Source of the DNA: Herbaspirillum sp. CF444
GTDB taxonomy: Bacteria; Pseudomonadota; Gammaproteobacteria; Burkholderiales; Burkholderiaceae_D
Assembly: GCF_000282135.1 (NCBI RefSeq)
Contig: NZ_AKJW01000018.1
Coordinates: 186,001-250,000, forward strand
Length of the DNA: 64,000 nucleotides
Reading direction: 5' to 3'
Shown: in pieces, positions 57,257 to 58,799 of the stretch
How the letters are laid out: each line of letters starts with the position of its first letter
Numbering within the stretch: position 1 is the first letter of the stretch
The notes under the pieces: generated by a model
Database searches by the model: none
What the model was told of the DNA's origin: nothing
The model's input: the letters and a program-made list of their open reading frames with translations, nothing else
Program-made: the position numbers and the translations under genes

Positions 57257-57874
57257 TCACAGCGTGGCCGGCGGCAAGATGCGCAAGCCGGTGTTTTGCA
57301 GCAGTTGCGCCGTCTCGAACAGCGGCAGGCCCATGATGCCGGAGTGGCTGCCGGCGATGTCCTTGATGAAAATCGACGCCAGTCCCTGGATGCCGTAGCC
57401 GCCGGCCTTGTCGTAGGGTTCCTGGGTGGAGCAATAGGCGCGGATCATGTCGTCGGTCAGCGATTCGAAGACGACGTCGGAGTATTGCGTGGTCTGCCAC
57501 ATTTGTTCCTGGAAGGCGACGGCGATGCTGGTGAGCACCTGGTGCGTGCGGCCGGACAGGCGCGTGATCATCTCAACCGCTTCTTTCACGTCGGCGGGTT
57601 TGCCGAGGATCAGGTCGTCGACGACGACGGTGGTGTCGGCCGCCAGGATGGGGCGCATCGGCAATTGCCGGTACAGCATGGTCTGGCGCGCGCTCATGAG
57701 CTTGTCGCGCGTGACGCGGGCGACATAGGCCGCCGGTTTTTCGTGGGGGAGGACTTGCTCGTCGACTTCCTTGTCGTTGAGCAGCAATTCGAAATCGATG
57801 CCGATCTGGCGCAGCAGTTCGCGCCGACGCGGGCTTTTGGAGGCGAGGTAGATTTTTTTGTCAGCAAGTTTCAT
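57257..57874 (-). CDS. maf: Maf-like nucleoside triphosphate pyrophosphatase
   Basis: This is a 205-residue Maf/YhdE protein that hydrolyses non-canonical or dTTP/UTP nucleotides. KKIYLASKSPRRRELLRQIGIDF is the conserved nucleotide loop, and the ILAADTTVVVDDLILGKP and DKAGGYGIQGLASIFIKDIAGSHSGIMGLPL blocks (core GGYGIQG) complete the family pattern. The ATG at 57874 is where homology begins; an open stretch upstream runs into the palindromic element and is not maf. It opens the maf-rng unit, downstream of the repeat element. Confidence 0.92.
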   Translation of the reverse strand: MKLADKKIYLASKSPRRRELLRQIGIDFELLLNDKEVDEQVLPHEKPAAYVARVTRDKLMSARQTMLYRQLPMRPILAADTTVVVDDLILGKPADVKEAVEMITRLSGRTHQVLTSIAVAFQEQMWQTTQYSDVVFESLTDDMIRAYCSTQEPYDKAGGYGIQGLASIFIKDIAGSHSGIMGLPLFETAQLLQNTGLRILPPATL

Positions 57875-57885
57875 GAAGCAACACT

Positions 57886-58245
57886 TAGAACTCATTTCAT
57901 AAATAGCTGCGAGTGCGAACGATCCTGTTTGGGAGGTAGTGCAAGGCGCGTCGCGCAGCCAAGGGTGCCCCTTGCTGGTCGCGTTCACGCTTGCAAGCGT
58001 GAACCGTTAAGCAGGCGGACAGCATGCTGTCCGAATTCCCTGCTACACCCCGTGGCAAGCGGCGCAACGCAGCAATACACCCAAACAGGACGTTCCCGAA
58101 GGGTTTGTCTCAGAAAGGGCGCTGGCCGCGTTGCGCTCCTTGCAGGAGTTTGCACATTCGGCACCGCTACGCGACGCGTCACGCGCCTTGCCAGCGCCCT
58201 TTCTGAGACAAACGCATCTCACAGCTATTTATGAAATGAGTTCTA
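57886..58245. repeat. MITE-like palindromic element between maf and rlmH
   Basis: A 360-bp segment is bounded by perfect 24-bp inverted repeats (57886-57909 and 58222-58245), each ending in TA. A second perfect 24-bp inverted repeat is nested inside (58103-58126 and 58190-58213). Two perfect palindromes (22 bp at 57983-58004 and 18 bp at 58016-58033) occupy the centre. It contains no protein-coding frame of family type. Partial copies of the same motif on both strands suggest internal rearrangement. A non-autonomous mobile element or large extragenic palindrome is the best reading; nothing identifies the parent transposase. Confidence 0.7.
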
Positions 58246-58328: not shown

Positions 58329-58799
58329 TCATACGCGGTGATAAGGATGATTCTGCGTAATCGACCAGGCGCGATACAACTGTTCGGCCAGCAGTACGCG
58401 CACCATGCCGTGCGGCAGCGTCAGGCTGGAAATGCGCACCAGCATGTCGGCATTGGCCTTGAGACCGGGATCGAGTCCGTCGGCGCCGCCGATCACGAAG
58501 GCGACATCGCGGCCGTCCTGCTGCCACTGCGTCAGCAACTGCGACAACTGTACCGAGGTGATGTCCTTGCCGTGCTCGTCCAGCGCGATGATGCGGGCGC
58601 CTTTCGGCAGGGCCGCTTCGATCTTGCTGCGTTCCTGCGACATCACGGTTTCTGCGGTCCTGCTGCCGGAGCGTTCTATCGGTTTGATTTCTTTCAACAG
58701 AACCCGGCACTCGGCCGGCATTCTCTTGGCGTATTCGTTAAATCCCGATGCTATCCATTCCGGCATTTTGTGGCCGACGGCGGTAATGATGAGCTGCAT
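58329..58799 (-). CDS. rlmH: 23S rRNA (pseudouridine1915-N3)-methyltransferase
   Basis: This is a 156-residue SPOUT-family methyltransferase, the normal RlmH length. It opens [27 protein letters not shown] and holds the SAM knot [13 protein letters not shown] (near residue 105) plus the terminal [16 protein letters not shown] motif that binds cofactor. It methylates pseudouridine 1915 of 23S rRNA. It lies 17 bp after rsfS on the same strand, a standard order; the element between it and maf separates them. Confidence 0.95.

Follow-up and report, generated by a model that had tools for sequence, protein, structure and literature searches.

A strongly palindromic, gene-free stretch lying between two genes poses a question about its nature; namely, whether it is a mobile element inserted into a conserved gene order or a structured leader or extragenic palindrome of another kind. 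We addressed this for an element in a 64,000-nucleotide stretch of the genome of Herbaspirillum sp. CF444 (the window; Table 1). Its outer arms are identical as reverse complements over 24 bp, TA included, and when extended they match over 28 nt at 96%. A second perfect 24-bp inverted repeat (58103–58126 and 58190–58213) closes arm 2, and both inner palindromes are exact. The perfect outer and inner repeats and the two palindromes had been described in the first-pass annotation, as had the gene-free interior. Only mechanical ORFs cross the element. In being short and without coding capacity, the element resembles a MITE. Its predicted fold is far more stable than that of shuffled sequences (z = −13.6 on the plus strand and −15.8 on the minus strand; none of 100 shuffles reached the same stability on either).

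Table 1 Coordinates of the element, its parts and the neighbouring genes in the window
Feature	Position	Strand	Remark
rlmH homologue, upstream neighbour	58329..58799	-	
maf homologue, downstream neighbour	57257..57874	-	
Whole element with both target TA copies	57886..58245	.	356 bp + 2 TA
Left terminal inverted repeat including TA	57886..57909	+	
Right terminal inverted repeat including TA	58222..58245	-	
Arm 1 of Y fold	57917..58095	.	GAAC...GTTC; extra module at tip
Junction mini-hairpin CC-GAA-GG between arms	58096..58102	.	CC/GG conserved, loop variable
Arm 2 of Y fold	58103..58213	.	Related to arm 2 of sister MITE family
22-bp perfect palindrome	57983..58004	.	Hairpin 1 of two-hairpin module
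18-bp perfect palindrome	58016..58033	.	Hairpin 2 of two-hairpin module
Two-hairpin module	57967..58052	+	Covariance-model bounds; absent from standard copies

Further copies, which the annotation had expected, are plentiful. A search of the same genome with the element returned 104 pieces, including many sub-pieces and self-palindromes, and the 21-base end motif occurs 49 times at up to three mismatches (26 exact), compared with 0 occurrences of the motif read backwards. Fifteen of the 26 exact hits lie no more than 115 bp from the end of a contig; recognizing these repeats at many contig ends of the draft genome has value for annotation. Across 61 genomes, DNA matches were found in 27 (26 of the 34 congeneric ones, that of the window included, and 1 of the 27 others), part of which (for example, G026 and G029) reflect the core shared with a sister family, here called B as opposed to family A with the ends of the window copy. 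An end-motif scan of named genomes yielded at least 93 stretches, and the 80 listed come from Herbaspirillum, Undibacterium, Noviherbaspirillum, Herminiimonas, Keguizhuia and unclassified Burkholderiales or Betaproteobacteria. As is expected of a MITE, the element is multicopy and polymorphic in position. Phage records contained no match to the element at megablast sensitivity, plasmid records gave only chance matches (no more than 23 of the 32 query bases, E values of 3 to 9) and the end motif was not matched exactly in any viral contig.

Read on the minus strand, the element stands after rlmH and before maf (both genes named after their protein families), and 11 nt separate it from the maf ATG. 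The gap between the two genes is 454 nt here compared with 22–131 nt in all 20 same-genus relatives read, measured as distances between BLAST ends in same-genus relatives of the rlmH search only; at three loci (L212, L213 and L214) the maf match starts 14–21 nt inside the gene. The element is absent from all four relatives aligned at the junction, and the flanks align up to the element on both sides. The proposed insertion into a conserved gene order is thereby supported. At the joint the relatives have CTTCTCAG, three bases more than the CTTAG formed by the joined flanks of the window; given these additional bases, no single TA is preserved at the window's own site. In the minus direction the element's left end also supplies an ATG (57895–57893), in frame with that of maf and seven codons ahead of it. 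The TGAGAAG ahead of the maf start of the relatives is a possible ribosome-binding site, which is altered in the window copy (57872–57895).

A clean empty site exists elsewhere. Genome G025 reads AT-TA, element, TA-CAAAATC, and Herbaspirillum sp. GW103 reads AT-TA-CAAAATC, with the left BLAST match stopping six bases short of the TA. A second insertion site in the window's own genome is empty in two aligned relatives, at a joint too diverged to read. Comparison with strains lacking the element, as the annotation had proposed, thus yielded empty sites, including a precise one with a single TA. When copies were located with a pattern that omits the TA, it was present on both sides in all 6 complete copies of the window's genome and in 16 of the 25 complete copies found in other genomes (missing on one or both sides in the other 9); with a pattern that includes the TA, it was found at both ends of 69 of 90 family-A insertions. 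Among the TA-flanked family-A insertions, 86% have a pyrimidine before and a purine after the TA (strands pooled). TA flanks in most copies, together with the empty site with a single TA, agree with the suggestion that TA is the insertion target. Terminal inverted repeats with a target duplication, another feature of MITEs, are therefore present, the single TA being unreadable in the relatives at the window's own site. An ORF of at least 450 nt spans only 21 of 66 insertion sites compared with 1,053 of 1,320 control positions, so either insertion is biased away from genes or the copies that persist are mostly intergenic.

To identify a partner we searched for PF13340 in 41 genomes and for the end motifs in six genomes. 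GW103 carries the same 19-bp ends 855 bp apart, flanked by TA and enclosing a PF13340 match, and GAACTCATTTCATAAATAG in the left terminal repeat of the window copy is identical to the ends of this IS5-family element. The anticipated transposase with matching ends therefore exists. It is encoded in two overlapping frames, the second of which has its stop codon within the right end, and a run of seven A near the frame border suggests frameshifting. The two halves match PF13340 and PF01609, and both exceed the cutoff of the NF033580 IS5 family. The partner transposase belongs to IS5, as expected for a dependent of that family (possibly of the subgroup IS427), and the MITE ends match those of an autonomous element.

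Copies of the IS at 98% are found nine times in G025, a 75% relative with the same ends occurs in G035 and partial copies lie in G019 and G029; the IS has no match at E 1e-10 in 56 of the 61 genomes, among them that of the window. No IS copy was found in the window's own assembly, which is a draft with breaks at these repeats. The single-contig genome with nine IS copies has the most ends of the six genomes scanned (82 including IS ends, among the matches listed). A further IS-sized end pair was found in L119 (Noviherbaspirillum malthae), and one in L148, which is probably the G035 contig. Separately, G019 contains a 528-bp internal-deletion derivative of the IS (L082, 501–1028) that keeps both ends and parts of both transposase halves.

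Hits of arm 2 outside family-A copies, where aligned, proved to belong to a second MITE, family B, of about 268 bp with ends beginning with GGGCCTGTTAAC. The two families are alike in length, in the YTAR target (10 insertions in B), in the subterminal GCGAGTGCGAAC/AACGCATCTCGC, in the junction and in arm 2 (68–74% identity), but B has other ends and another arm 1. The distance from the TA to the subterminal GCGAG/GTGAG is 21 nt in both. The window's own genome contains 17 exact B ends compared with 0 for the control, which gave one hit across seven genomes, in G001. Examples of B include L264, L272 and L274 and, in the window's genome, C35, C57, C82, C88 and C111. Neither lone B ends in seven genomes nor the PF13340 loci revealed a B transposase. 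The B ends either were exchanged or have diverged with different transposases. In GW103, an IS left end is followed directly by GGGTCTGTTAAC, which is near the family-B ends (L083, 501–535).

The interiors share an architecture. We extracted 89 distinct family-A and 15 family-B elements from the loci, and single linkage of their interiors placed 98 of the 104 in one group, leaving five interiors of 38–87 bp and one of 170 bp. Family-A elements are mostly 264–303 bp long, TA included, with 268–273 bp the commonest lengths. Their fold has a closing stem formed by the two ends, followed by arm 1, a very small hairpin (CC-NNN-GG) and then arm 2. Several palindromic elements of 22–60 bp consist of nearly only the two ends (L294, 150–171; L106, 6056–6093; L139, 3787–3838; L145, 3216–3275; L193, 6023–6073); these are possibly remnants or minimal elements.

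We examined covariation in two alignments, hand-chosen from full-length rows, with structures derived from those same alignments. In A2 (26 copies, 25 of the window's genus), pairing holds in 98.0% of cells. Two-sided changes occur at 40 of 103 pairs, a number that none of 500 shuffles reached (mean 16.5) and that compares with 10 or fewer in slid structures. In A4 (21 copies, 19 from Undibacterium), pairing holds in 98.1% of cells and two-sided changes occur at 23 of 98 pairs, again not reached by any of 500 shuffles (mean 13.3), with 6 or fewer in slid structures; further pair types in A4 did not rise above the shuffles (39 of 500). The changes on both sides in A2 and A4 include transversions, for example C-G to G-C, which cannot pass via G-U. 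One-sided changes outnumber two-sided ones in the most similar pairs of copies (11 versus 4 in A2, 3 versus 0 in A3 and 18 versus 10 in A4), and two-sided changes rise only with divergence between copies. Homogenization is therefore not instantaneous: single copies decay while lineages stay paired. We considered a simultaneous origin of both-side changes and rejected it on the same dominance of one-sided changes. Neither strand of 69 family-A copies is preferred by minimum free energy (36 versus 33, P = 0.89). G-U and A-C number 35 and 25 in A2 (P = 0.25), 9 and 9 in A3, and 27 and 13 in A4 (P = 0.04), and in family B the minus-strand fold is slightly better (lower in 9 of 13, P = 0.03). The strand tests thus do not favour RNA in family A and give weak signals in B and A4.

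The window copy has an additional part. Element residues 84–165 (about 82 bp), which form a two-hairpin module, are missing in standard copies. In the window copy and in L036 (G023) the module occupies the tip of arm 1. In L098 (G001) it lies close to the 3′ base of arm 2, whereas L097 and L149 have it outside every recognized end pair. A covariance model built from nine copies, including ones from G000, G001 and G017, matches 12 of 34 genomes at E 0.01, three of them from other families. Since the module is found by itself as well, and at a different place in another copy, the window copy is a composite of different repeats. The earlier suggestion that it was built from more than one copy therefore holds as to its composite nature but not as to its parts, which are a foldback core and a different 82-bp module rather than two copies of the same element. 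Three stretches enclosed by family-A ends (L058, 283–559; L240, 1423–1661; and L191, 7016–7248, the shorter of the pairs at that locus) have no match to a standard copy although they are among the 98 linked interiors; each has the module. Family-A ends thus enclose other interiors too. At four of nine module loci read further (L300, L301, L303 and L305) the module adjoins the 3′ end of tmRNA (L300, 1324–1581; L303, 1332–1581; L305, 1501–1581; L301, 1501–1594), in tandem at two of the four, and these modules sit within apparent partial tmRNA 3′ ends.

Taken together, copy number, TA duplication, empty sites and a transposase with the same ends uphold the reading as a MITE-like element. The outcomes named beforehand as fatal to it (a single copy, no empty site and no transposase with matching ends) all failed to appear. 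We consider it very probable that the element is a MITE, of a family spread over several Oxalobacteraceae genera, that is moved in trans by an IS5-family transposase with the same 19-bp ends. It qualifies as a MITE on every feature that could be checked, its transposase is known from relatives, and, judging from the sequences, the element can probably be moved by the enzyme of that jumping gene. The transposase would bind the ends, insert the element at YTAR and duplicate the TA; the shared ends and the TA duplication are observed, and transposition in trans is what they point to. The window copy is a chimeric MITE of unusual architecture, combining a covarying Y core common to two end sets with an embedded module, and is nearest to the form of about 270 bp in H. 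rhizosphaerae and relatives, to which the 82-bp module would have been added at the tip of arm 1. The gene-free interior is a foldback Y with complementary arms, which may be maintained by template switching during replication, by selection for a needed structure, or by both; multibase compensatory changes can, according to published work, arise through template switching (PMC8794818). As the element sits 11 nt upstream of maf, a strong hairpin is predicted in the rlmH–maf message, and maf and the next gene downstream may be expressed at a lower level.

A selected structured RNA, or a regulatory leader of maf in which the long inverted repeats are incidental, could also account for a very stable, conserved and covarying Y fold so close to a start codon, and the minus-strand bias of B and the G-U excess of A4 lean the same way. 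We regard this as very unlikely, given that the 20 same-genus relatives read lack the element at the locus, that copies stand at many unrelated sites, that the 69 family-A copies show no strand preference and A2 and A3 no significant excess of G-U over A-C, and that the window and four related loci match no Rfam family above chance (chance-level matches only for the window, no match at E 0.1 for the four loci). The bias of sites away from ORFs, like the palindromic, multicopy nature of the element, would suit a REP/ERIC-type extragenic palindrome moved by something other than a classical IS transposase; ends identical to those of an IS5-family element, the TA duplication and the precise empty site make that extremely improbable. 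The element is almost certainly not an IS copy that has decayed through deletion: such forms exist, as in G019, but beyond the 19–20-bp ends the window copy and one standard, one family-B and one Undibacterium copy all match the IS at chance level only.

A more far-reaching account, which we hold to be unlikely, extends the MITE reading. The Y core itself would be the selfish unit, its arms renewed by hairpin-templated replication and not by stepwise compensation. On this account, the core would have carried at least two unrelated end sets (A and B) and so would ride on different IS5-type transposases across Oxalobacteraceae, and the A ends on other interiors (L058, L240 and L191) would mean that cores and ends are exchanged in both directions.

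The family, whichever way its arms are kept, offers natural material for weighing template-switch repair against selection on structure, since its foldback arms have changed in concert over dozens of copies in at least two genera. A further suggestion is that a non-autonomous core can swap its transposase ends; if true, this would help to explain why MITE families persist longer than the elements on which they depend. In the literature searched, outside subscription journals and ISfinder, no paper joins the 13-base start of the ends with inverted repeats, none treats an Oxalobacteraceae MITE together with a transposase and none combines bacterial MITEs with compensatory change and cruciforms. 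Among the matches listed, none of the titles and abstract openings on Herbaspirillum or Burkholderiales MITEs, IS5-family MITEs or Herbaspirillum insertion sequences points to this element.

Among known systems, the closest is the IS5-family IS of GW103, which has the same 19-bp terminal repeats and TA flanks but, unlike the MITE, codes for a transposase in two frames and has no Y core. Bacterial MITEs such as that of Porphyromonas gingivalis are likewise short, gene-free and multicopy with inverted ends (PMC4596501); the present element differs in its covarying Y interior, which is common to a family with other ends. The Tn3-derived TIMEs are likewise non-autonomous and mosaic-forming, with a simplest form of 262 bp, but they have 38-bp Tn3-type ends (PMC4133298) and 5–6-bp duplications, in contrast to the IS5-type ends of 19–24 bp and the TA found here.
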